Virus record (IMG/VR): IMGVR_UViG_3300018476_000127
Location: 1-44,279 of that record
Reading direction: 5' to 3' (one strand)
Length of the DNA: 44,279 bases
From: a virus
Part shown: positions 1,880 to 43,353 of the stretch, one piece after another
How positions within the stretch are numbered: position 1 is the stretch's first letter
Layout: every line of letters starts with the position of its first letter
Translations under genes and position numbers: made by a program
Notes under the pieces: generated by a model
Told to the model about the DNA's origin: nothing
Database searches by the model: none
Seen by the model: the letters and a program-made list of their open reading frames with translations, nothing else

Positions 1880-1907
1880 GATACTGGATGGATTGAATGG
1901 AAAGTAA
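1785..1907 (+). CDS. 40-residue helical mini-protein overlapping the zinc-ribbon gene
   Basis: Starts MERLQQTILV and ends KILDGLNGK. It has a good ribosome site, GGAG (1772-1775), 9 bases upstream of ATG. The sequence is amphipathic-helix-like with normal residue composition, in contrast to the low-complexity tail read in the overlapping frame. The stop lies inside the start of the polymerase gene (ATG 1897), giving an 11-base overlap and likely translational coupling. Unrecognised family. Confidence 0.55.
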   Translation: MERLQQTILVARILQKEIKKMGAHEAITIATKILDGLNGK

Positions 1908-4413
1908 ATACGTACCCGGAGGTGGTCCAATTGGAGCCAAGATGATGATTCTTGGCGAAGCTCCTCAGGTGGGTGAATCTAAACCATTCTGCGGGCCTCA
2001 TGGTAGAGAATTGGATCGTCTACTGAAGGACTGTGGAATATACAAGGATAACTGTTGGGTCAGTTACGTCAGCAAGTTTGCAGTTCCGGCTAATCTAGAT
2101 CGTAAGAAACTTCCTTTCCATATACGCGCTCGAAACGCGGGCATTGATATGGAGAAACAATTAGAGGAACTACAAGTTGAAATCAATGACGTTAAACCTA
2201 ACGTTATTCTCGCTCTCGGTGGGACTGCTCTGTGGGCACTCTCCGGTAAGACTAAAATTAGCAACTTTCGAGGCTCTATCCTCCGAGGCATGGGCACTAA
2301 GTTTGTTGCTACCTATAATCCCGCGCACTTGTTATCTCACATTCAGGGTGGAGAAATCAAGGGTTATTGGAACAGACAGATAATTCTATTCGACATTAAG
2401 CGCGCAATAGAAGAGTCATCTAGTCCCGAATCCAATCTACCTAGTCGGGCATTACAGATTTGCCGAAATTCAGGTGATCTGTACGAGTTCCTCGAAAAGT
2501 ACAAACACCATAAGAAGATGAGCGCCGATATCGAATCGGGCGGTCACTGTATCCCTGTGTGTGTAGGCTTGGCTTTCAGTAAGTCTCACGGCATGACGGT
2601 CCCTCTATGGAACAAAGACGGTATTTCAACTATCCCTGATTCCGATATTGCTGTTATCTGGGGCATGTTGGCTCAGGTTTTATGGGAGAAAGACATTGTC
2701 GGACAAAACTTTAATTATGACCGGGACAAGCTCCGAAGATTGGGATTCGCTATCAGAAGAATACAATCTGATACTATGCTCAAGGCATTCACAATTAACC
2801 CTGAACTCCCAAAAGGGCTTGCATTTAATACAAGTATCTACACCAGAGAACCCTTCTACAAAGATGAGGGCATGTATGAGGGGGACACTAGAGATCTATT
2901 ACTCGGATGTGCTAGAGATTCGTGTGTTACGTACGAAATAGATGAAGCGATGGACGCGGATATCGATGAGTTGGGTGTGCGGAAGTTCTATGAAAACTTC
3001 GTCATGTCACTCCCTGACTTCTATCTAGAGATTGAAAACAATGGTTTCCGTATAAACGAGGCGAAGCGCAGCGAGCTGATAGAGAAGTATGTCAAGTGGG
3101 ATGAGCGTCTTGGTTATGAGATGTATCAATTAGCTGGCATCGAGACTAACGTTTCATCACCTCTACAAGTTCATTCTCTTCTATTCGACCACTGGAAACT
3201 TCCACGTAGGAAGGGAGTTGGTGAAGAGGAACTTACAGCTCTACTGAACTTAAAGAATGGCATTAAAGCACCTGAACATAGACTTTGGATTGAAAAGTGT
3301 TTGGAGAGACGACGTGTTAAGAAGACGATTAGTACGTATCTTTTTGCGATTCCGGATTATGATGGTAAAATGCGTACTACGTGTTTTCCTTGCTTGGAAA
3401 CGGGTAGAAGTTCCACATCCAGACAAGAGCCACCAATCAGACCATTCATAGACATTGGTGGTAAGGGTAAGAAAGTCGATCAGAGAGTTATGGGTACGTC
3501 ATTCCAAGTATTCACTAAACATGGTGATATTGGAGCTGATGTGCGTGGAATGTATGAACCCGATGAGGGTGAGATATTCGTACAACTAGACAGTTCCCAA
3601 GCAGAAGCCAGAGTCGTATTCAATTTAGCGATGGACGAGGATGCTTTAAGGGACATTGATGAACATGACTATCACGCACTTACTGCGAGCTGGTTTTTCG
3701 GTGGTGTCGAGGCTGACTATTCCAAGAAGATACTGGGGTACGAATCGCCAATTAGATTCGCAGGGAAGACTCTACGTCATGCGGGCCATCTTGGAGCTGG
3801 ACCGAAGAGAGCGTCTACGGAACTCAACACCCAAGCGCGTAAATATAAGATTGACATTACAATCAATGAAGCAATTGCTGAACGCGCGCTTAAAATCTTC
3901 CACTCTAAGCAGCCGAAGATTCAACACATCTTTCATGCACAAGTTGTGGAGGCTCTGAAAAATGGCCGAAAACTTATCGCCCCTCTTCCGTGGGGTATCG
4001 ATGCAGACTGTGGTGGCATACGAATTTTCTATGAACGATGGGGGGATGATCTCTTCCGAGAAGCTCTCTCTTACATACCACAACGTGCTGTATCTGACAA
4101 TACCAAAGCAGCTGGTATACGAATTAAAAAGCAGTGCCGAGATGCGAGACTTATTCTTGAAGCGCATGACGCTCTTCTGTTCGCAGTTAGAATAAAGGAA
4201 GTCGATGACTTCATTATGATCGCAAAGAAGGAGATGGAACGTCCCATCAATTTCAAAGCTTGTTCTCTACCACGTCGGCATCTTAGGATTCCATGTGACG
4301 TGGAAATTGGTGAGAACTATAAGGACTTTAAGAAGTACAAGTTCAAGGAAGTGGAAGTGGAAGTAGAGAAACCACGTGTACTTACGATCACTGAACAGTT
4401 CCAAGTGGAGTAA
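1897..4413 (+). CDS. Uracil-DNA-glycosylase-like domain fused to proofreading family A DNA polymerase
   Basis: 838 residues; replicative polymerase of the phage. Residues 1-165 match the UDG superfamily (family 4/5 style): GEAP at 20-23, E27, PF at 30-31 and NPAHLL at 141-146, where family 4 has HPS. Residues 205-350 form a 3'-5' exonuclease: D211/E213 (Exo I), N271...D275 (Exo II), and a D341 region for Exo III. Residues 370-810 are the polymerase: motif A D565-SSQAEAR, motif B R620-x3-K624-x3-H628, motif C H757-D758-A759. Motif B has Leu (632) where the O-helix Tyr usually stands, and motif C has Ala where E. coli Pol I has Glu. Both Pol I catalytic aspartate positions (D565, D758) are present, so it is probably active. 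Whether the UDG-like domain removes or merely senses uracil is unknown. Confidence 0.9.
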   Translation: MESKYVPGGGPIGAKMMILGEAPQVGESKPFCGPHGRELDRLLKDCGIYKDNCWVSYVSKFAVPANLDRKKLPFHIRARNAGIDMEKQLEELQVEINDVKPNVILALGGTALWALSGKTKISNFRGSILRGMGTKFVATYNPAHLLSHIQGGEIKGYWNRQIILFDIKRAIEESSSPESNLPSRALQICRNSGDLYEFLEKYKHHKKMSADIESGGHCIPVCVGLAFSKSHGMTVPLWNKDGISTIPDSDIAVIWGMLAQVLWEKDIVGQNFNYDRDKLRRLGFAIRRIQSDTMLKAFTINPELPKGLAFNTSIYTREPFYKDEGMYEGDTRDLLLGCARDSCVTYEIDEAMDADIDELGVRKFYENFVMSLPDFYLEIENNGFRINEAKRSELIEKYVKWDERLGYEMYQLAGIETNVSSPLQVHSLLFDHWKLPRRKGVGEEELTALLNLKNGIKAPEHRLWIEKCLERRRVKKTISTYLFAIPDYDGKMRTTCFPCLETGRSSTSRQEPPIRPFIDIGGKGKKVDQRVMGTSFQVFTKHGDIGADVRGMYEPDEGEIFVQLDSSQAEARVVFNLAMDEDALRDIDEHDYHALTASWFFGGVEADYSKKILGYESPIRFAGKTLRHAGHLGAGPKRASTELNTQARKYKIDITINEAIAERALKIFHSKQPKIQHIFHAQVVEALKNGRKLIAPLPWGIDADCGGIRIFYERWGDDLFREALSYIPQRAVSDNTKAAGIRIKKQCRDARLILEAHDALLFAVRIKEVDDFIMIAKKEMERPINFKACSLPRRHLRIPCDVEIGENYKDFKKYKFKEVEVEVEKPRVLTITEQFQVE

Positions 4414-4417
4414 CTAG

Positions 4418-5695
4418 GTGACATGGCTAGAGAAATTATTAGGTCAGCACTCCGAACTCGAAAGCCCGACTAACTTTTGGTTATGGGGTGGGTTAGCTTC
4501 GATAAGTGCGATAGTCAAGGACAATGTATGGATAGACCGACAGATTTACAATCTCTACCCGAACATTTACGTGATGTTCCATGCAGAGAGTGGATTGAAG
4601 AAAGGTCCACCCATCAGTATGGCGAAACAGTTAGTGCGTGGTGTAGGTGGGACGAGGATAATTTCTGGTCGTAGTTCCATACAAGGCATTCTGAAGGAAC
4701 TGGGAACAGCCCAGACTCAACCCGGCGGACGGGTGATTAACAAATCTACGGCATTCATTTGCAGTAGTGAGTTAACAAGTTCCATCGTCGAAGACAAAGT
4801 AGCAACAGATATTCTCACTGACCTCTATGATAGACAGTACAATATAGGGGAGTGGCGGAGTCTGTTGAAAATGGAGTCCTTCAACTTAAAGGACCCCACG
4901 ATCACTATGCTAACTGCAACGAATGAGGCGCACTCCACTGACTTCTTTGGTAAGAAGGATCTACATGGAGGTTATTTCGCCAGAACATTCGTCATCTCTG
5001 AGAACAAACGTAATAGAGCTAATAGTCTGATAGCTCCACTGAGGAATCCACCAAAGTATTTAGAGGCTGTCGAGTATCTAAAGGAACTAGATAAACTAAA
5101 GGGTCCATTCGCTCCATTGGCGATGCAGGAACCAAGTGACGAATACTATATTCCTATAGTGGAAGCCGAGACAGGTGAGACAAACTACTTCAATCGTGCA
5201 GGTCAGGTGTATCAGGAGTGGTATGAGGACTTCATTGTAACCATTCAGCATCAAGAAATTAAAGATGAAACTGGTACATTGAATCGATTTGGTGACAGTG
5301 TATTGAAGGTGGCGATGCTTATCGCACTTAGTAAAGAGCCGAAACTAGAGATAGATGAGGACTCGATGCAATTGGCTATCAATTACACAGAGAAACTCGT
5401 AGGTAACGTGAGGGAAATGACCTATGGTAAAAAGGGTCTATCCGATTCGAAAGGAATTAAGCAGCTGATTATCGCGGAATTACTCGGCAGGGGTGGACAT
5501 CAGATTTCTCGCCCTATGCTACTGAAGAAGATGTGGGCGCATTACAAGGATGCCACAGAATTGGATGAGATTATGATCTCATTCGACCAAGCGAAGATGA
5601 TACGAACTGAGACGATCGGAAATCAAATCGTGTATACCATGAATGAGAATATGGTCGATGATTTGAAGCGTATGTACGCAGGTAAATTCAAATGA
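4418..5695 (+). CDS. DUF3987-like phage ATPase/helicase
   Basis: 425 residues. A degenerate P-loop, AESGLKKGPP (56-65), follows a hydrophobic strand (YPNIYVMF); a Walker-B-like strand TAFICSSEL and the sensor-like HGGYFARTF with a candidate arginine finger follow. This is the layout of DUF3987-type ATPases, found beside phage polymerases and probably acting as replicative helicase or primase-helicase subunits. The Ser/Thr after the P-loop Lys is absent, as in a subset of phage homologues. GTG 4418 is chosen as start: GGAG (4407-4410) lies 7 bases upstream, directly over the polymerase stop. No separate primase or DnaB-like helicase is visible, so this gene is the best candidate for fork unwinding. 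Confidence 0.7.
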   Translation: MTWLEKLLGQHSELESPTNFWLWGGLASISAIVKDNVWIDRQIYNLYPNIYVMFHAESGLKKGPPISMAKQLVRGVGGTRIISGRSSIQGILKELGTAQTQPGGRVINKSTAFICSSELTSSIVEDKVATDILTDLYDRQYNIGEWRSLLKMESFNLKDPTITMLTATNEAHSTDFFGKKDLHGGYFARTFVISENKRNRANSLIAPLRNPPKYLEAVEYLKELDKLKGPFAPLAMQEPSDEYYIPIVEAETGETNYFNRAGQVYQEWYEDFIVTIQHQEIKDETGTLNRFGDSVLKVAMLIALSKEPKLEIDEDSMQLAINYTEKLVGNVREMTYGKKGLSDSKGIKQLIIAELLGRGGHQISRPMLLKKMWAHYKDATELDEIMISFDQAKMIRTETIGNQIVYTMNENMVDDLKRMYAGKFK

Positions 5696-6070: not shown

Positions 6071-6204
6071 ATAAGTGGGAAGTACCTTTACCGAAGTTGA
6101 GTAAGTATCAATGGGCGGAAGTTGCAAATGAGGTATGCAAACTTCCGCCCATCTTTTGGGAATTTCTTAACTTGAGATCACCAAAGCTCACCACCCTTAA
6201 ATAA
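6067..6204 (+). CDS. 45-residue ORF running through the bidirectional hairpin
   Basis: MNKWEVPLPK... starts within an ATGA overlap with the preceding stop and has a strong AAGGAG (6053-6058) 8 bases upstream, so initiation is likely. The coding sequence then passes through the 6111-6152 hairpin and 27 bases into the convergent late gene. The start is well supported, but whether the C-terminus is meaningful is unclear. Confidence 0.4.
   Translation: MNKWEVPLPKLSKYQWAEVANEVCKLPPIFWEFLNLRSPKLTTLK
6111..6156. terminator. Bidirectional hairpin between convergent operons
   Basis: ATGGGCGGAAGTTGC (6111-6125) pairs with GCAAACTTCCGCCCAT (6137-6152) with one bulged base, giving a stem of about 15 bp; CTTTT follows on the + strand. 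It sits exactly where the rightward left-arm transcripts and the leftward late transcripts meet. Confidence 0.8.
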
Positions 6205-9200
6205 CCAATCATTCTCAGGTGCAATGAACCGACCTTGAGATTCCCCCTTCTCGTAAGTCTGTGTACCCATTCCTGCTACTACTGGAGCCATTAGTGGTAA
6301 CAGGGATGGGTCTTCGTTAATCATCTCCGTCATATCCCCAATTACCAACGGCACAAACAGTTGCATCGTTCTGTCCTTCACATGGAAGGGCTGATACTTC
6401 GATGCAAATGCCAAGTCATTAGCGAACTTAGCGATTGGATGTAGCTTATTGGTTATGAACCTCTGAGCTACAGTACCTCTCGTTTCAGCTCTATATCCCT
6501 GACCTAATTCAAAGTCTGCCTCTGATGAACCTGATGATGTGGTGTGTCCACTCAGTAGTCTAGAAAATGCGACTAGATACTGTTGGAATCCACCCGCCGG
6601 ATCGAGGCGCGTATTACCAAATTTAATCTTACCGAAGTCAGCACTGTTCGTATCCCCTGATACTTCAGCTCCTCCAGCCTTAGCTAACATACTAACAGTA
6701 CCCCATGCAGCGGCAGTCGATAGTGCAGCCTTCATGTATTGCTTACGCACCATTGGAGGGGCCATCATGTAGGTTGCAGGATTCAACATCCTCATACGTG
6801 ATGCGAACAGACGTGGTGAGAAGAGGGTATTCGTCAGGAGTTCAGCATTCTTCTCCAGTGAATACTCTTTCAGTCCGAAACTACCACTCTCATTAGTTCC
6901 GGGTAATGCAATCTTCAGTGGTCCACGTCCAGTAGCAGTATTCACGAAATCTGCAATTTTCTTCGCAAGATCCTTGTTATGGAATGGATCTAATTCCATT
7001 GCCTCTACTGGACTGAACTTCTGTTTCATCAGTCCCGGCCGCGCATAGCCTGTTTCAATAGCCCCTGCTGCCATCCTCTGAGCATCCTTCATTAGTGACT
7101 CAAAGGTATCTGCTCTCAATTGGTTTAGGAAGGCAGTATAGGCTCTATTACTAGCCCTCACACCCCTACCTAATGTACCCTTATAGAGTGCTTGAGCACC
7201 AGGAATTGCCTTCAGGAAATCCCCTGTTTCAGCCCATTGAGATGCAGCAGCTTCCTCTCTTCTAGTAGGCACAGAAGAGATGTCACTAAGTTTCATACCT
7301 GCTTTATGGGCATCAGATGGAATGAATTTATTTGTTGCATCATCCCATCCTGATTGGAATATTTCCCTTGCTTTAATGTCACTTAAACTCTTCTGAAATG
7401 CTTTCTCAGATCCCAATGCTTTAACCATTGGAATCCACGCTTTCCACCAGTGTTTAGTTGCAATGAGTGGAAGTCCTTGACGTAGTGGGGCTGATAAGTC
7501 AAGTGTAGTAGTCAGTCCTCTTGCTAAGTTATATGCTTGAGAAATGATACTAGGTTTCTTCTCTTCCTTGGACATTGCTGTTAATAGTTTTTCGGCTCTC
7601 TGCTGCTGGGAAAGAACTCTTCCTCCAGTGTTTCCACGACTGTAAGAAACTCCTTCCGGTCCTTCGGCTGTAGGGTCAAGGCGAGATTGCGCTCGTTTGA
7701 TAAGATCAACTGTAGTGTCTCCTCTCCCTCTGACCTCAAGATGTTGCTGTAATAACTTCTGTAATTCTGGAGAGTATTGCCCATCCCTGCCGGAGATGGC
7801 TGCGATGATCGCATTTCTGGCATTTAACTGGTCCTCCAAATCCAACTTACCATGTACTTCCATCAGTTTATAGGTGAATTTATCACCCTCTACACGGATG
7901 ATGTTGTGAGTAAATTCATGCATCATAGCATGAACTAATAGTTGAGCCGCCTGTCGAGGATTCTTAGCCTTTGCTAATGCATTGAAGATATTAATCATAA
8001 CCGCGTGTTCCCTAGCACCTTTAGGGGAACCTTGGTTAGGAAGGTTTATTCCTGCAATATCCGTATCATGTAGTAGAATCCCATGCTTGGAAGTTCTTCC
8101 AATTTGTTCAGTTGGAAACAGGGTATCTAACTTGTCTAATACACCTTTAAATACCTTATTGAATTTAATGATGATAGGATTGTCATTCAATCCCTGAATC
8201 TCTTCAGGTGTATATCGATCACCTGAATCGTGTAGTACGAAGTCATTCGGAGTACCATCAGATTGAGTAGCTGGTACAGAACTATCGTATGCGTCCTGAA
8301 GATCCTTCTTAATTGCTCTCTTTGTAGCAATATCTAGATCCTGCTTAACGATAGCATCTACTTCTGCTACTCCATCCTCTGTATTACGTACATATGATGG
8401 TGCCTCAAAATCTCCCATCTTTGGAGATGGACCTAAATCTAATGTTCCGGGGGTTTCTTCATTTGCACCCCTACTCCAAGGTAATTCTAACTGTCCCTCT
8501 TGTGGGATAGCCGCATCCCATGCACTGGTTGAACGTGGTCCCAACTTAGGAGCTACACTTCCTAATGGCCCATTCAATTCGGGCATATTAGGATACTGTG
8601 CATCCTGACCACTCTGTCTACGTGCATGTTCCTCTGCAAACCATCCGGGTTCACCGGGTTTCTTTGGTGCAGATCGAACTTGTTGTATATGATTCTCAAG
8701 TTCTTGAAACATCCGAGTATAGAGTTCAAGTTCTGTAGTATTACCACTTTTACGATGGTAATTAATTCCTTTAGCTATAATCTGAGCATACCCCACAAGT
8801 TCATCAGTATCATTCACCTGTTGCATTGTCTCTACAGCTTGGTCAAATATACCATCAAGTTGTGGAGGCGGATCACCTTGTGGTGGAGCAGGAGTAGCAG
8901 GAGGGGGTCTATAATCTGGTCCTACAGGTTCACCATACTTATCCAGAGTTGCACGCTTCACCAAACGCGCTTGTACCATCTCACCACCTTTCAATTGGTA
9001 GTCGATGGTTGGTGCGCCTTTAGTAGCTGTCGCATCAGTAGGAATTACACTTCCATCAGGTAACTCATAGTGATCCATCCCCGCTCGTTGTGGGGGAGTG
9101 AATGGAGCTACATTACCAGTGGATTCAGTAGGAGCGCGTGTGTATCTACCCTCACTAAAAGGGTCTACGTTCTCTCCATCCTCACCACCAGTATCACGAG

Positions 9201-10722
9201 CGAATGCAGGTTCATTTGCAGGGTCAGGACCAAATGTAATAGTCCCATTTACTTCATCCTTACTGATGACAACAAATCCCTGTTTCTTTAATGCCCTGAT
9301 TTTAGCAGGATTTCGTTCTAAATCGGCTCTCTTGAGTGTTAATCCATTATCTGCATTGAATCTAGTGACACCGCCTAACTGACTGGGCGGAGCACCTGAT
9401 GGGGCAGTAGGTGGTGGTACATCTGCTGGCATAGCATTAGGCTGACCACCCTTTAATACAAGAACCGGCTTATTACCTTCCGGAGTTTTAACAGTCTGAC
9501 CAGAAGGTACATATCCCTGTTGCTTCTGAATCTCAAAGTCAGTGGCATTAGAATACACCACATACTGAGGTAACCCTGATGTGGGGGCTGGGGCTGGGGC
9601 AGGAGGTGGAGCTACAGGTGGAACTTCTGGTGGTAACACCCCAGCAGGAGGTGGAATACCTTCTAATGCCGCAGCCGGTGGTCTATCTGAAGCGAATGGA
9701 GCAGTTAATGGTGCATCCTCTGGGAAATCAGTAATATGCTGATCATCCACCAAGAAATTCTGCTGCATAGGCTCTTGGAAGAGTGGTCCATATTTAGGTG
9801 GTATGCCCGGACCACCCTGTCCAGTTGCGAATCTCCCTGCCGCACTCCTGTATGGGCCTAAATTTAAGTCCATCTGAGTAGGCTGATTTACATCCATACC
9901 GAAATCTATGGATGGCTCACTCACTGAAGGAGGAGGTATACCCGCTAATAGATTCTCTCCACCCTGAGGAGGCATAGATCCCTCAAAAGGTAACCAATTA
10001 GGTGGATATGGTGTACCGGGTGGTACATTTGGAGCAGGAGGCGGGGGTGGTACATTAGCGATAGCAGCTAATGCCCCCGGAGTCTGTCCAGCCCCTACTG
10101 GCACTGGTGGAACTACTGGAGGAACTACAGGAGGAGGAGCATTATTCAATGCCCTACCGTGGAATCCTCCAATACCAGCACCTAATCCGAAGCCAGTGAC
10201 TGCACCACCTCCGAGATTAGCCATGTATTCAGATGCAGGTGCATCTAATGAACCTGTCTGTGCCCAATGTTGGAATGGTGTTCCAGCACCACTAACTACG
10301 GCACCTTCCAAGCCACTTCTAAGGCCCGTATTGAGCATGTACTTACCGATTGCACCTGCTCCCTTACCAACGAATTTAGCAGGACCAAGAATAGGTGGAG
10401 CACCACCTAATACAGTCTCTACACCAAATTCAGCTGGATTAAATTCCTTACCACTGTACCAATTTCCAAGTAAATTACCTACAGCAGCACCCGCTGAACC
10501 ACCTGCCATACCCCCACCTACGGCACCCAAACCAAGTGCGGGAATACCAGCTAAACCACCTGCTAAACCACCTACTACAGCAGGGGTAGTGCGTAAAACC
10601 TGTTCAACCCACCAGTCTATACCGGATTGTGGTGGTGGTGGTCTTCTTTGATGAGAAGAGGAACGAGGAGGTGTATCCTCTACCCATCTGGGGACATCTT
10701 CTACCCACCTTGGTTCAGGCAT
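6178..10722 (-). CDS. Giant internal virion / DNA-ejection protein with zincin motif
   Basis: 1514 residues. Residues about 45-90 are a glycine-zipper-like hydrophobic segment suited to membrane insertion. Residues about 195-640 are Pro-rich linkers with repeated PP(P) and PVPP patterns. Near 935 lies HEFTH within a hydrophobic helix (LLVHAMMHEFTH), a zinc-metallopeptidase signature. The last 450 residues are helical with a hydrophobic stretch near the end. Large polyvalent proteins of this kind are packaged and ejected by podoviruses, where they help the DNA cross the envelope and may cleave peptidoglycan cross-links or host proteins. It is last in the late operon, and its ATG overlaps the previous stop (TAATG). 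Confidence 0.65.
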   Translation of the reverse strand: MPEPRWVEDVPRWVEDTPPRSSSHQRRPPPPQSGIDWWVEQVLRTTPAVVGGLAGGLAGIPALGLGAVGGGMAGGSAGAAVGNLLGNWYSGKEFNPAEFGVETVLGGAPPILGPAKFVGKGAGAIGKYMLNTGLRSGLEGAVVSGAGTPFQHWAQTGSLDAPASEYMANLGGGAVTGFGLGAGIGGFHGRALNNAPPPVVPPVVPPVPVGAGQTPGALAAIANVPPPPPAPNVPPGTPYPPNWLPFEGSMPPQGGENLLAGIPPPSVSEPSIDFGMDVNQPTQMDLNLGPYRSAAGRFATGQGGPGIPPKYGPLFQEPMQQNFLVDDQHITDFPEDAPLTAPFASDRPPAAALEGIPPPAGVLPPEVPPVAPPPAPAPAPTSGLPQYVVYSNATDFEIQKQQGYVPSGQTVKTPEGNKPVLVLKGGQPNAMPADVPPPTAPSGAPPSQLGGVTRFNADNGLTLKRADLERNPAKIRALKKQGFVVISKDEVNGTITFGPDPANEPAFARDTGGEDGENVDPFSEGRYTRAPTESTGNVAPFTPPQRAGMDHYELPDGSVIPTDATATKGAPTIDYQLKGGEMVQARLVKRATLDKYGEPVGPDYRPPPATPAPPQGDPPPQLDGIFDQAVETMQQVNDTDELVGYAQIIAKGINYHRKSGNTTELELYTRMFQELENHIQQVRSAPKKPGEPGWFAEEHARRQSGQDAQYPNMPELNGPLGSVAPKLGPRSTSAWDAAIPQEGQLELPWSRGANEETPGTLDLGPSPKMGDFEAPSYVRNTEDGVAEVDAIVKQDLDIATKRAIKKDLQDAYDSSVPATQSDGTPNDFVLHDSGDRYTPEEIQGLNDNPIIIKFNKVFKGVLDKLDTLFPTEQIGRTSKHGILLHDTDIAGINLPNQGSPKGAREHAVMINIFNALAKAKNPRQAAQLLVHAMMHEFTHNIIRVEGDKFTYKLMEVHGKLDLEDQLNARNAIIAAISGRDGQYSPELQKLLQQHLEVRGRGDTTVDLIKRAQSRLDPTAEGPEGVSYSRGNTGGRVLSQQQRAEKLLTAMSKEEKKPSIISQAYNLARGLTTTLDLSAPLRQGLPLIATKHWWKAWIPMVKALGSEKAFQKSLSDIKAREIFQSGWDDATNKFIPSDAHKAGMKLSDISSVPTRREEAAASQWAETGDFLKAIPGAQALYKGTLGRGVRASNRAYTAFLNQLRADTFESLMKDAQRMAAGAIETGYARPGLMKQKFSPVEAMELDPFHNKDLAKKIADFVNTATGRGPLKIALPGTNESGSFGLKEYSLEKNAELLTNTLFSPRLFASRMRMLNPATYMMAPPMVRKQYMKAALSTAAAWGTVSMLAKAGGAEVSGDTNSADFGKIKFGNTRLDPAGGFQQYLVAFSRLLSGHTTSSGSSEADFELGQGYRAETRGTVAQRFITNKLHPIAKFANDLAFASKYQPFHVKDRTMQLFVPLVIGDMTEMINEDPSLLPLMAPVVAGMGTQTYEKGESQGRFIAPENDWLFKGGELW

Positions 10723-29539: not shown

Positions 29540-29713
29540 TCATCCCCTGACTGGAACGTCAGCGATACCGAATGCGCGTAAGATTAGAAGGATAGCAAAT
29601 ACAACGATGACGATTCGAATGAGCATCTTGAATGGAGTCGGCATTGGAATCATTGACTCTATCACGTAGAGAACGACTCCGAGTACGAGTAGAGTGAGAA
29701 TGAGAGTAATCAT
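29540..29713 (-). CDS. Small two-TM membrane protein, holin-like
   Basis: 57 residues. Two hydrophobic helices, ITLILTLLVLGVVLYVI and MLIRIVIVVFAILLILRAF, are joined by a short polar/Pro loop (ESMIPMPTPFK). Size and topology match class II-type holins and the many unnamed phage two-TM proteins. The ATG overlaps the TGA of the metallopeptidase gene (ATGA), so the two are translated together. The holin reading is inference; the membrane nature is seen directly. Confidence 0.65.
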   Translation of the reverse strand: MITLILTLLVLGVVLYVIESMIPMPTPFKMLIRIVIVVFAILLILRAFGIADVPVRG

Positions 29714-30258
29714 TTCTTCTTTCTCTTCCCCAGCGTTTCCGCGGTTTGTTCACCTATTGTATATGCTTCAGGATGTCCTGAACCAGAAGTATGAGCTAAC
29801 TCATGACCTAAAGTTTCCCAGAGGAAATCCTCATCTTCTTTATACAATCTAGGATTAATTCCAATATCCTTCTTACCTTCAGTTATTCCAAGTAAATTCG
29901 ATGTTTCAAATTTTCTAAGCGGGTAATCTTCTTCTGCTAATCGTTCAATTATACCATTAGATGGTCCCATTAAGATTCTCTTAGCCTTCCCACGTAATTC
30001 AGGAGCTGCTTTTAAAATCTTATCCGTCATCTTTGCAACTCTAGGCTGACCAATTACTAATGGCTCTTGTCTAAATGATGGTTCATGTGAAACAAATGGT
30101 AAATCTGCACTTGCAAAGATGCTTTTTTCACTTTTATTATCGACAGTATTAGGTTTACCACCTAATCTATCACGCCATATTTCCCTTTCAATATCCCACT
30201 TGAAGGGAGGTTCAGAAGGAGAGAGTCCTTTCTTAGGCTTTGCCAGTGGCATTTGCAA
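29710..30258 (-). CDS. Small zinc metallopeptidase with metzincin-type motif
   Basis: 182 residues. The key segment is H152-E153-L-A-H156-T-S-G159-S-G-H162, an exact HExxHxxGxxH, which supplies three zinc His ligands and the catalytic Glu. The N-terminal 140 residues show no known domain; the C-terminus is basic (LGKRKKK). It is translationally coupled to a holin-like gene, so a cell-wall peptidase in lysis is attractive; a capsid-maturation or host-protein protease is possible. A later start (Met 3) cannot be excluded. Confidence 0.6.
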   Translation of the reverse strand: MQMPLAKPKKGLSPSEPPFKWDIEREIWRDRLGGKPNTVDNKSEKSIFASADLPFVSHEPSFRQEPLVIGQPRVAKMTDKILKAAPELRGKAKRILMGPSNGIIERLAEEDYPLRKFETSNLLGITEGKKDIGINPRLYKEDEDFLWETLGHELAHTSGSGHPEAYTIGEQTAETLGKRKKK

Positions 30259-31169: not shown

Positions 31170-32834
31170 TTAGTGTCTATACCTAGCAATTGGCTTAATG
31201 ACTTCCGATTCCTCAGTCTTAGCCATATTCCTGTAGAATGCAGTCCAGTCTCCATTACCCGTTAGCTGTTGGACCAGTGCTTCCTGCTTTTCAATTCGTT
31301 TGAATTCTGTATTAGATTCATCAAAGAAACCTTCCGCCGCATCCACCAAATATCTTAACCCGTCTATAGGGTCGTCACCTTCAAATTCAGCGATGTCTTC
31401 TGCCGGCTTATTTCCTTTAGGTTTGTCATATGAGCAGGCTTTAATGGCTTCAACAAGTACATCACAACCTTTGAAAATCTGTAATTTAGGTAAATTCTTC
31501 TCTGGTTCTTGTGGTTGGAATGAATTCATGTACGCTTTGTACTCATTCATTCCTCTATTACGCATAATCCACATGGCATATTCTTCGTTATATGGAGGAA
31601 GTTCAGTTGGATTTAACTCTCTTGGCTTCCAACGAAGATATTCATGAATTAAAATCTTACCAGCTACTCTACTTCCGGGAGTGTTGTTGGATAATTCGAT
31701 TGATTGTCCGAGTTCATCTTCAATCTGTTGTTGGATCGTATGCTCTTGACCACGATCTTGGCCCGCGGATTTACAGAATCTTATAAGTCTTGGGTTTTCT
31801 TTATCGATGTATGTTTTAACATGTGAAGCCCACTCTGCAATCTTCGTTTTTACCCAATGTTGTTCTCTATAGATGTAAACTCTACGATTAGGTGCGATAG
31901 CTGCGTAGCCAATCCATGTCATCGCAGCAAATCCCCAATCACCAACTACAATCTTAGGCCACCATTCAGGAATTTCAAATGGTTCCACGACATGTAATGC
32001 GTTGTCTGATTCATCTTCGAATTTCCTGTCTCTAAATTCGTCGAATACCTGCCCCTGATACGCGTCCCAATCACCGAATAACTTTGCTTTACGCTCTGCA
32101 TCGATTGTGATGCCTTGAAGTGACTGTTTATAGTTTGGATCTACGTGTTTATTGTCTTCGAGGGTGGAATGAATGTAGATTCGTTTATTTCCACCTTTTC
32201 CAATGATGATTTTTCCACCTTTCGGGGCTGGCTTAATGAACCGTTTATATGTCCAAGTATGCCCAATACCTCCGGGCATTCCAGCCGCTCTAATAATAGC
32301 AGGCAACTCTGGGTCAGGGGTTCTAACGCGTTGAAATCCAATATAGAGATAGATCCATTCTGTAATGGAAGTAAGCTCATCAGGGGTGAACAAGTTGATC
32401 TGCATTGAATCGTATTTGTGCACATCATCTTCGTTCTCACAGTGGCCGAGAAATATCATAGATCCTTCATTAGAAGGACCGTATTTAGTGGATGTTCCTG
32501 TCCCGTATTGATCGGATCGTGGGAAAGTCCAGCACATTTCGGTACGATTGAGAGTGGCACCGAATCTGCGATATAACTCGCGACTTCTAGGTACTATCTC
32601 GTTTCTTAGTTCAGGAAATGTACGACGCATAAACACCTGTTTGAATTTTGGGTGTTCATGCCATCGATGGACGATTCCATAAAGTAACAATACATCTGAT
32701 TTTCCACTACCTGCACCTCCGCCATAGAAAGCCTCTTTAACTGAGGTGGGTACAGATAAGAATAAAGACTGCTTTGGCTCAGGTTTCCACTCATTGGGAT
32801 TTCTTGAGTATTTTTCCGGGATTTCATTTGCCAT
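31170..32834 (-). CDS. terL: Terminase large subunit
   Basis: 554 residues. Walker A GGGAGSGKS at 38-46, then arginine-rich MRRTFPELRNE and the Walker-B-like INLFTPDEL with D153/E154. The nuclease half has VVGDWGFAAMTW with the first RNase-H-like Asp near residue 295. It translocates DNA into the prohead and cuts the concatemer. Length is typical. It overlaps the endonuclease VII gene start by 11 bases. Confidence 0.95.
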   Translation of the reverse strand: MANEIPEKYSRNPNEWKPEPKQSLFLSVPTSVKEAFYGGGAGSGKSDVLLLYGIVHRWHEHPKFKQVFMRRTFPELRNEIVPRSRELYRRFGATLNRTEMCWTFPRSDQYGTGTSTKYGPSNEGSMIFLGHCENEDDVHKYDSMQINLFTPDELTSITEWIYLYIGFQRVRTPDPELPAIIRAAGMPGGIGHTWTYKRFIKPAPKGGKIIIGKGGNKRIYIHSTLEDNKHVDPNYKQSLQGITIDAERKAKLFGDWDAYQGQVFDEFRDRKFEDESDNALHVVEPFEIPEWWPKIVVGDWGFAAMTWIGYAAIAPNRRVYIYREQHWVKTKIAEWASHVKTYIDKENPRLIRFCKSAGQDRGQEHTIQQQIEDELGQSIELSNNTPGSRVAGKILIHEYLRWKPRELNPTELPPYNEEYAMWIMRNRGMNEYKAYMNSFQPQEPEKNLPKLQIFKGCDVLVEAIKACSYDKPKGNKPAEDIAEFEGDDPIDGLRYLVDAAEGFFDESNTEFKRIEKQEALVQQLTGNGDWTAFYRNMAKTEESEVIKPIARYRH

Positions 32835-39481: not shown

Positions 39482-39703
39482 ATGAAGAGATTCTTTTGTG
39501 TGACGTGTAAGTCGGTTAAACGGGTTCGCACTCTTCCGCTCGAAATCAACGACATCTATTCCAACATTCCATCAGATAGAATCGGACGTTGTGATTGGCA
39601 TACGTCTGGTGTTATCAACGGACGCGCGGTCACTCCGAAGCAGGTAAACTACAAGAAGACGAAGGCATCCACTGTTCAGACCAAACAGAAGAAGGCAAGC
39701 TAA
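39482..39703 (+). CDS. Small Cys/His protein with basic tail
   Basis: 73 residues from ATG 39482, with AAAGGA upstream; the longer upstream frame runs through the previous gene and is rejected. C6/C9 and a CDWH motif form a zinc site; the C-terminus is Lys-rich (KASTVQTKQKKAS). It may bind nucleic acid. The stop overlaps the next start (TAATG). Confidence 0.65.
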   Translation: MKRFFCVTCKSVKRVRTLPLEINDIYSNIPSDRIGRCDWHTSGVINGRAVTPKQVNYKKTKASTVQTKQKKAS

Positions 39704-40407
39704 TGATTACCACAACTACTCAGAAGCGTAAATTCGGTGAGTGCGATACGTGTGATTCGAAGAATGTTCAAATCACACTTGAGCATCACAACATCTGGAT
39801 GTGTGAATCCTGCAAGACAGAGGATGACGAGCGTACCGAGAAGAATAAGCAGGTACAGGCGATCATCACTGAGGCGAAGGTAATCGATACCACGATTGAA
39901 TTGAAGTCGGATATCTTCAATGCCGTGACGGTTCCTGCTACTGCCATCAAGGCTGCAATCTGGGCTGATGATTCGATTCCAGATAATAAGAAGGACTTCG
40001 CATACACGAGTATGATGAATGAGCGTCATCTTCACTTCAAGAAGATAGTATTCGAACGTCGCGCTGAACTCTTGAAGCTTGAGAATGAGATGCTGGCATG
40101 GCAGGTGCAGGCACAACATGCAGCCGGTAAATTGCATGGCGAGGAACGCGCGAAGTTTCGTGAGATTGATGTCAACTATCAGCCCGCACCTGTAAAATCC
40201 GTCAAAGTGGCGGCTGGTGTTTCAGGTAAGAAGGGACCATCGAAGAACGACTATAAGAGAAACGAGATGGCAGCAGCAGTGGAGAAATACGGACTTCCAG
40301 CTAATGCAATCCGTATGATGATGCTGCGGAAGAATATGACGGCGGATGAAGCAGGGAAGGCACTAGCAGCGGCAGAGAATCAAGCATCGGCATCTGTTTC
40401 CAACTAG
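39703..40407 (+). CDS. Zinc-ribbon helical protein
   Basis: 234 residues from ATG 39703. C14/C17 and C34/C37 form an N-terminal ribbon; a long charged helix follows (KKIVFERRAELLKLENEMLAW is its core, here quoted only in part), then a basic Gly/Lys linker and a C-terminal helix-loop (YGLPANAIRMMMLRKNMTADE) with HTH-like character. DNA-binding is plausible. The longer upstream frame is a shadow of the preceding gene. It lies upstream of the SprT-SNF2 fusion. Confidence 0.65.
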   Translation: MITTTTQKRKFGECDTCDSKNVQITLEHHNIWMCESCKTEDDERTEKNKQVQAIITEAKVIDTTIELKSDIFNAVTVPATAIKAAIWADDSIPDNKKDFAYTSMMNERHLHFKKIVFERRAELLKLENEMLAWQVQAQHAAGKLHGEERAKFREIDVNYQPAPVKSVKVAAGVSGKKGPSKNDYKRNEMAAAVEKYGLPANAIRMMMLRKNMTADEAGKALAAAENQASASVSN

Positions 40408-40460: not shown

Positions 40461-42548
40461 ATGACCAGACAAGAAGCGTCACAACTACTGCGGGAAGAAC
40501 TCAATAAACACGGGCTGAGAGATTGGTCCGTGAGACTCAATCAGAATGCCGACTCTAAATTTTTGGGTCTATGTAGCTATAAAGATCGCTGCATCATTCT
40601 GAGTGCCCACCATATCGACATCCACCCATCACCGGATGTCATCAATACAATCAAGCACGAAGTAGCACACGCGCTCGTAGGTCCGGGACATGGGCACGAT
40701 GATGTGTGGTCAGCTAAGGCACGGGAAGTGGGGTGTGACAACACTCTGCCGTGTTCTAATCTTTCATTGTCGCCATATGTGATCGATGCAATTCGATCAG
40801 GCGCTACAGTGGAAGTGACATTCGAGGAGCAGGTAATACGCACTCCACGATATAACATCACTCGCCTGCAGGATAAGTGCGAAGTATGTGGTGTAGTGGC
40901 AGTGATGAAGGAAGAGAAGATTGTAGTGATGGATGGGGACACGGAACCCAACCTGAAATACATTCTTCTGGAGTGTGGGCATACCATCATCAAGCAGATA
41001 CCAAAGGGAACACCGTTCCATACGTTCCAGTTTGGTGGTGACATCAATTGCAAGCATGAGTGGAATAAGAATACTTGTCTCGCTTGCAATCGGAAGCGTC
41101 CATACGATTTTCAACTCGAAGGAATGGCGTTTCTTGAGGTAGCACTATCTACAGCCAATGGCGGCGCGTGTTTCGATGAAATGGGATTAGGTAAGACCAT
41201 ACAGGCAGGTGGTGTGTTGAAATTCCACCCTGAACTGTGGCCTGTATTGTGGATTGTCAAATCCGGTCTGAAGTATCAGACGGCAGTATTTCTCATCGAT
41301 TGGCAAGGGGATGCATTCGTTCCACAGATAATCAATTCCTCGAAGGATTATCTGATGCCCGGTCTGAAGAACTACATCATCGGATATGATATGTTGGTGC
41401 CGAAGACACGCACTCTCAAATCAGGGAAGGTGGTTAGTAGCGGATTCGATATCAGCCAATTCGAGCGTGTCGGCATCAAATGTGTTGTGTTAGACGAGTG
41501 TCAGCAAATCAAGAATGTAGACTCGTCACGGACGCAGATGGTACGACGTGTAGTCAAAGGCAAGAAGGTAATTCCACTGTCTGGAACGCCATGGAACAAT
41601 CGTGGCTCAGAGCTGTTTCCAGTGTTGAATATGCTGGACTCCACGAAGTTCCACTCTGAAGCTGATTTCAAACGTCGTTGGGTTGACACGTATTGGAGTG
41701 GGAATCAGCTGAAGGAAGGTGGTATTCGTAACATCAAGGCATTCAAAGAGTACACAAAGTCTCTTTGCATCAGGAGAGAGCGCGTGGAAGTGATGCCAGA
41801 ACTACCGTTGGTCAATAGGACCAAACTTCATGTCAAGATGGACCTCACCACGGAACAACAGTATGACGAGGCAGTAGAAGAGTTCGTCAAGTGGTATGAG
41901 GAGCAGGCTGGTAATCTGACTGGTATGGCAATCATCGCAGCCATGCAGAAGATGCGGCATCTAGTGGGTGTCGCCAAGATTCCTGCTACGATGGAATACT
42001 TGGAAGAGTTCGCAGAAGACACTGACAGGAAGATCGTAGTGTTCGCACATCATATCGACGTTCAGGACATGCTCTACACTCAGGTAAAGGAACGGTTTGA
42101 TTCGGATGGTGTGGAAGAGAGAATTCCTGTATTGAAGCTGTTCGCAGAGACGGATGGTGCTGAAAAGTTCGAAATTCAAGAACGTTTCAATAAGCTACCA
42201 CGCGCTATCCTCGTCGCATCACAATTGGCAGCAGGTGAGGGTCTTAACCTTCAGACGTGCTGTGACTGTGTGATGCATGAGAGGCAGTGGAATCCGGGTA
42301 AGGAAGAACAATGTGAAGGTCGATTTATTCGCATCGGTTCAGTGTCTAACAGTGTGTCGGCAGTATACGCACACATGGAAGGACTCACTACCATCGACCC
42401 TCAGTTGGATGAGATGGTAGAGAGGAAGCGTATTCAATTCCATAACGTCATGAACAATGGCGAGATGCAGGTATGGAATGAAGACAGTATGCTGAAGGAA
42501 TTGGCTGAAGTGATTGTATCAGCCCATAGACGGAAGAAGGGGCTGTAA
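40461..42548 (+). CDS. SprT-like metalloprotease - zinc ribbon - SNF2 helicase fusion
   Basis: 695 residues. Residues 1-100 match SprT: HEVAH (66-70), GPGHGHDDVW (74-83) giving the third ligand. A Cys pair and ECGH (about 137-180) and CKHEW...CLACN form zinc sites. Residues about 215-680 are an SNF2-type two-lobe ATPase: DEMGLGKT (motif I, about 239-246), DECQQ (motif II in the place of DEAH), LSGTPWNN (III), LAAGEGLNL (V) and QCEGRFIRIG (VI). SprT/SPRTN proteases cut DNA-protein crosslinks; SNF2 motors remodel protein-DNA complexes. A combined machine that pulls on and cleaves proteins bound to DNA is an attractive inference. TAAGGAC precedes ATG 40461. Confidence 0.88.
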   Translation: MTRQEASQLLREELNKHGLRDWSVRLNQNADSKFLGLCSYKDRCIILSAHHIDIHPSPDVINTIKHEVAHALVGPGHGHDDVWSAKAREVGCDNTLPCSNLSLSPYVIDAIRSGATVEVTFEEQVIRTPRYNITRLQDKCEVCGVVAVMKEEKIVVMDGDTEPNLKYILLECGHTIIKQIPKGTPFHTFQFGGDINCKHEWNKNTCLACNRKRPYDFQLEGMAFLEVALSTANGGACFDEMGLGKTIQAGGVLKFHPELWPVLWIVKSGLKYQTAVFLIDWQGDAFVPQIINSSKDYLMPGLKNYIIGYDMLVPKTRTLKSGKVVSSGFDISQFERVGIKCVVLDECQQIKNVDSSRTQMVRRVVKGKKVIPLSGTPWNNRGSELFPVLNMLDSTKFHSEADFKRRWVDTYWSGNQLKEGGIRNIKAFKEYTKSLCIRRERVEVMPELPLVNRTKLHVKMDLTTEQQYDEAVEEFVKWYEEQAGNLTGMAIIAAMQKMRHLVGVAKIPATMEYLEEFAEDTDRKIVVFAHHIDVQDMLYTQVKERFDSDGVEERIPVLKLFAETDGAEKFEIQERFNKLPRAILVASQLAAGEGLNLQTCCDCVMHERQWNPGKEEQCEGRFIRIGSVSNSVSAVYAHMEGLTTIDPQLDEMVERKRIQFHNVMNNGEMQVWNEDSMLKELAEVIVSAHRRKKGL

Positions 42549-43268: not shown

Positions 43269-43353
43269 GCCGGGATGGCGGAACTGGTATACGCTCAAAA
43301 CTTAAAATTTTGCGCTGCGAAGCAGCATGTGGGTTCGACTCCCACTCCCGGCA
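43269..43353 (+). tRNA. tRNA-Leu (anticodon UAA)
   Basis: Acceptor GCCGGGA (43269-43275) pairs with TCCCGGC (43346-43352); discriminator A at 43353. D-arm GCG...CGC; anticodon stem CAAAA/TTTTG around loop CTTAAAA, anticodon UAA; long variable arm GCTGC-GAA-GCAGC, typical of Leu; T-arm GTGGG-TTCGACT-CCCAC. No CCA is encoded (ATT follows). Reads UUA/UUG leucine codons, which an AT-leaning phage may use more than its host. Confidence 0.95.

Follow-up and report, generated by a model that had tools for sequence, protein, structure and literature searches.

A 44,279-base viral record, the window analysed here, carries on its + strand a gene of 695 codons with an ATG start (40461-42548) whose product joins an SprT-like zinc protease to an SNF2 motor. 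The original prediction, made from the letters alone, proposed an SprT protease fused to a full SNF2 ATPase, and we found the reading frame, its coordinates and its motifs as described there. Three Pfam profiles scored above their cut-offs: SprT-like (PF10263, residues 15-93, taking in the HEVAH region; 38.7 bits versus 25.6), SNF2-rel_dom (PF00176, 79.3 bits versus 24.9) and Helicase_C (PF00271, 41.1 bits versus 23.5). All 30 members of a family alignment (A1) match the same three profiles. The SprT-like zincin domain occupies residues 1-112 (40461-40796), with the protease motif HEVAH at residues 66-70 (40656-40670) and the third ligand, H79 (40695-40697), inside GPGHGHDDVW (residues 74-83). 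PHROG matches to residues 1-118 are phage families without an assigned function. The motor spans residues 213-640 (41097-42380) and contains SNF2 motifs I, II, III, V and VI, among them the Walker A sequence DEMGLGKT (residues 239-246, 41175-41198), DECQ (345-348, 41493-41504), SGTPW (374-378) and motif VI, QCEGRFIRIG (617-626, 42309-42338). The PHROG DNA-helicase family phrog_62 covers residues 212-683 (E 4.7e-74).

Downstream of the protease domain lie two four-ligand zinc sites, C140, C143, C172 and H174 (40878-40982) and C197, H199, C206 and C209 (41049-41087), which bear out the predicted Cys/His sites and are invariant wherever covered (137-139 and 140-141 alignment rows, respectively). 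As homologues that lack SprT retain both sites together with the motor, the sites may be part of the motor and not of the protease. A Pfam domain search of the window protein returned no ubiquitin, PCNA or p97 recruitment domain beside SprT, SNF2 and Helicase_C.

We assessed conservation in an alignment of 166 rows, 126 of them open reading frames with the SprT domain. All 126 of these retain the HExxH motif and third histidine ligand (H66, E67, H70 and H79), and with no dead site among them a protease pseudogene is ruled out. The original prediction depended on conserved zinc ligands and SNF2 catalytic residues; the Walker A GxGK, DE, S-T and motif VI arginine of the motor are likewise invariant wherever covered across the 166 rows. 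As a control for bias from searching with HExxH, loci were also collected by a motor-only pattern scan and by a scan with a zinc-region/motor pattern. These loci include 72 distinct fused reading frames with protease, 70 of them recognised by a motif search within the first 140 residues; in the other two, the stop-to-stop frame is longer and the motif falls past residue 140, and the alignment contains no dead site. Median dN/dS is about 0.07-0.09 in every region. Across 41 close pairs, the median ratio of SprT dN to gene dS is 0.093 versus 0.071-0.076 for SNF2. Mean pairwise identity is 0.63 for SprT and 0.57 for SNF2. Both halves are thus under similar purifying selection, and a protease half this strongly constrained shows no trace of an arms race against a changing defence target. 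In one relative (L331, 5968-9138), the fusion gene has 1,057 residues and is interrupted by 337 residues that follow the Walker A lysine (GLGK^T); LAGLIDADG/homing-endonuclease matches mark this insertion as an intein in the ATP-binding loop of the motor.

Structure prediction agreed with the domain assignments. AlphaFold2, run on the family alignment, gave a model with pLDDT 83.8 and pTM 0.77, in which Foldseek matched the motor to the SNF2 remodellers Ino80, CSB, ISW1 and Rad54. When residues 1-214 were modelled alone, Foldseek matched the archaeal minigluzincins jannalysin, abylysin and selecase with probability 1.00, human SPRTN (6mdx) with 0.99 and Wss1 with 0.92, at modest E-values for these zincin folds (0.004-0.02). 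The protease domain is accordingly modelled as a zincin fold. The linker at about residues 113-136 has low confidence, so the model does not fix how protease and motor lie relative to each other.

The fusion is widespread among uncultivated viral sequences. IMG/VR was scanned with the protein and with alignments and distant members of its family, which gave hundreds of loci; after removal of duplicates, at least 125 distinct full fusions remained, with identity down to about 43%. That number, together with purifying selection, rules out a chance reading frame or a chimera of a single assembly. Long contigs among these loci are mostly 44-48 kb, and one contig of 47,596 bases carrying the family has a 127-base terminal repeat. 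Elsewhere we found the parts but not the whole: no place covering 80% of the query exists in 50,697 phage and 72,556 plasmid records, where matches are to SprT alone or SNF2 alone. No relative, and hence no prophage clue to the host, turned up when the family alignment was run against 84,980 bacterial and archaeal genomes, and none of the best 80 bacterial SprT loci has an SNF2 fusion. The best 50 BFVD structural matches are SNF2 or helicase-type where named, none is described as an SprT fusion and their query-normalized TM-score never exceeds 0.55. Residues 136-246, the zinc region through Walker A, have no phage-database match on their own. We know of no single-chain ATP-driven DNA-tracking protease. 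The literature searched likewise describes no SprT-SNF2 fusion, although papers beyond that search may exist; a phage paper that has both SprT and SNF2 describes two separate genes (PMC7824862). As far as the collections searched show, which span cultured phages, plasmids and the literature, the original prediction, which knew of no described phage system of this kind, is borne out, and two known families meet here in an undescribed architecture.

We asked how the two halves came together and how stably they have remained so. In a tree with ten stand-alone phage SprTs, the fused SprT domains group together as one separate clade (support 86/96), so a single fusion origin is likely. Nine distinct, 5'-complete motor genes lack SprT (L077/L078, L316, L319, L320, L321, L328, L345, L282 and L277), and most begin a few residues from the zinc region (MAVVTRLQDKCPECGK...). 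L318 was not counted as a loss, as its contig begins there. On the motor tree these genes are scattered among fused relatives and require at least eight changes; given one fusion origin, this means at least eight losses. A search of the SprT-less contigs, three of them near full-length at 46.6-47.7 kb, found no protein or Pfam match to a separate SprT. We therefore rejected the idea that the domain had moved to a gene of its own, although a very diverged protease could escape such searches. At one further locus (L336, 5992-8078), SprT and SNF2 occupy two overlapping reading frames that are out of frame with each other, which reflects either a genuine split of the gene or a frameshift introduced in assembly. 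Judged from sequence, the SprT domain behaves as a module, either whole and catalytically intact or cleanly gone, with no decayed active site. Such all-or-none retention is the main reason to take proteolysis as the activity under selection, and the clean losses point to a motor and zinc region with a function of their own. The original picture is revised in one respect: the protease appears to be an accessory module and not an obligatory one, lost at least eight times while the motor stayed.

The surrounding genes place the fusion in a tailed phage and, within it, near replication functions. As originally proposed, the contig is of phage origin, since it encodes a terminase large subunit (31170-32834, - strand; phrog_979, E 4e-32) and a major head protein; an endonuclease VII is also present. 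The fusion gene belongs to a block of early genes on the + strand. Should the two ends of the genome be joined, it continues into genes, all on the + strand, for a Sak4-like single-stranded DNA annealing protein/recombinase (57-584; phrog_124, E 2e-6), a uracil-DNA glycosylase fused to a family A DNA polymerase (UDG-PolA, 1897-4413; PF03167 and PF00476) and a primase/DUF3987 ATPase (4418-5695; phrog_14296, with DUF3987 just under cut-off). All three are present in each of six genomes compared, one of which is SprT-less, and the glycosylase part occurs in 15 of 16 related records. This arrangement supports assignment of the fusion protein to a replication/recombination block. A specific tie between SprT and UDG-PolA through AP-site crosslinks was considered and dropped, as the glycosylase part occurs both with and without SprT and shows no simple correlation. 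Immediately upstream of the fusion, a gene at 39703-40407 (+ strand) encodes N-terminal Cys pairs resembling a zinc ribbon; it has no Pfam or PHROG match and, of 94 loci that could be tested, 91 have it upstream of the motor gene. Just downstream lies a tRNA-Leu (TAA) at 43269-43353. Two further reading frames on the - strand drew our attention. One, of 182 residues, lies between the head and terminase genes (29710-30258) and has a sub-threshold SprT-like match at residues 127-157 (18 bits); it is possibly another zinc peptidase. The other, of 1,514 residues (6178-10722), has no PHROG match and shares 31-51% identity with counterparts in related genomes.

The architecture suggests a motor-coupled protease. 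We propose, with a probability of about one in two and by analogy with human repair, that the protein removes bound or crosslinked proteins from phage DNA during its replication, as a single-chain analogue of FANCJ plus SPRTN. As its family would predict, the SNF2 motor with its zinc region would bind phage DNA and move along it. Where it meets a protein that is tightly bound or covalently crosslinked to the DNA, it would use ATP hydrolysis to push against the obstacle or unfold it, and the tethered SprT zincin, whose active site is intact, would cut the exposed chain and thereby let the phage genome be replicated and recombined. The motor would be the core of this enzyme and the protease an add-on; the pattern of retention is observed, and we infer that the protease is kept only where obstacles matter. 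This reading is favoured because both enzymes are complete and in one chain, under strong constraint, lost all-or-none and set in a replication context. Repeated SprT loss counts against it, since the protease cannot then be essential for this phage group. More tentatively, and somewhat short of even odds, the motor may drive obstructing proteins into the active site of the SprT domain tethered to it, which would couple cleavage to translocation within the single chain.

Other targets deserve consideration. The motor might instead bring the protease to host DNA-bound proteins, such as nucleoid proteins, restriction enzymes or other defence complexes, and destroy them in the course of host takeover or counter-defence. 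The patchy retention of SprT among related phages would fit a host-dependent target, and a jumbo-phage survey proposed that separate SprT proteases act on host proteins (PMC7824862). Moreover, the stand-alone SprT of a mycobacteriophage, LHTSCC gp83, has a bactericidal effect on M. smegmatis and makes its cells filamentous (PMC7474061), an example of the strong effect that a phage SprT can have in a host; the toxicity and filamentation also speak for the obstacle-clearing reading, being what an SprT that attacks DNA metabolism would cause. Yet the protease of the fusion is about as constrained as the motor, without the signature of an arms race, and its gene sits among replication genes and not in a variable accessory region; we consider takeover rather unlikely. 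Conflict between transcription and replication offers another role, in which a RapA-like or CSB-like motor strips stalled RNA polymerase from phage DNA and SprT degrades it. CSB-Pol II complexes are among the best structural matches, and RapA of bacteria, which belongs to the SNF2 proteins, recycles RNA polymerase (PMC7824862). These Foldseek matches are, however, generic to SNF2; the general Pfam result for the window protein includes no RapA-specific domain such as the polymerase-binding N-terminal Tudor-like domains, and the scanned proteins include no recognisable phage RNA polymerase; we regard polymerase clearance as improbable.

The remaining alternatives concern the protease itself. 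SPRTN cuts itself, and the SprT domain could by extension cleave its own chain or process a phage protein, such as the product of the upstream gene, and thereby switch the motor off. The conserved position of that gene beside the fusion speaks for such a role, but it also lies beside SprT-less motors (for example, L077 and L319) and evolves fast (23-33% identity), unlike a fixed substrate, and we regard this explanation as quite improbable. Least probable of all, and very much so, is that the SprT domain serves as a non-proteolytic DNA- or protein-binding module, given that all four active-site positions are intact in every domain-bearing reading frame; a domain used for binding alone should have lost E67 in at least a few of these many diverged sequences.

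What is known of the repair of protein-blocked DNA comes mainly from eukaryotes, which use separate motor and protease proteins under the control of ubiquitin. If clearance of obstacles from phage DNA is indeed the function, a compact phage enzyme with both activities would constitute a minimal system in which motor-protease coupling is directly testable by point mutants, with the SprT-less motors found in nature serving as controls. A further question is what proteins obstruct phage DNA as it replicates, and why cutting them is needed in some of these phages only.

Among known proteins, each half has counterparts in phages. Stand-alone SprTs of Mycobacterium phages (KFPoly gp80, LHTSCC gp83) and Gordonia phage Amok (gp31) share the SprT-like domain with HExxH and third histidine, and the domain in the fusion is 46-48% identical to those of KFPoly and Amok. 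They differ in length (155-230 residues), in having a C-terminal Cys-rich tail of their own and no motor, and in falling outside the clade of fused copies. Some stand-alone actinophage SprT genes lie near genes for PolA, Cas4 exonuclease, RecA-like protein and resolvase, a setting similar to that of the fusion gene and a point in favour of the proposed clearance of obstacles. In the T4-like phages phiR1-RT and CPRSA (L351 and L352), a stand-alone SprT gene lies directly 3' of a DNA topoisomerase subunit gene; as topoisomerases form covalent DNA links, a functional tie between the two is possible there. Phage SNF2 helicases (PHROG 62) belong to the same motor family as the fusion, with no SprT domain found in them; the best BLAST match among them is p104 of Rhodothermus phage RM378, at 27% identity. 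Acinetobacter phage Loki encodes an SprT-like gp24 near a helicase, gp26, according to its paper. We rejected this pair as an unfused precursor, since gp26 is a PHROG 16 helicase outside the SNF2 group of the fusion and gp24 scores below the SprT cut-off, leaving a loose parallel only.

Beyond phages, the archaeal minigluzincins proabylysin, projannalysin and selecase are the best structural matches of the protease domain, with a marginal sequence match, and unlike the fused domain they are stand-alone proteins of 100-110 residues. Human SPRTN and yeast Wss1 share with the phage protein the zincin fold and HExxH with a third histidine. A zinc region follows the protease in them as in the fusion, where it may however belong to the motor. 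Their ubiquitin- and PCNA-binding parts are not recognised in the phage fusion, and neither carries a motor of its own; both work with separate motors such as FANCJ. FANCJ is an XPD-like single-stranded DNA helicase, whereas the phage motor is of the SNF2 type. SNF2 proteins are usually double-stranded DNA translocases, and this difference weighs against the proposed unfolding by the phage motor. In human repair, FANCJ meets the crosslinked protein and unfolds it, and SPRTN then cleaves (PMC12279946). That pairing brings a DNA motor and an SprT protease to one substrate, as the fusion would, but does so in trans, with two proteins in place of one.
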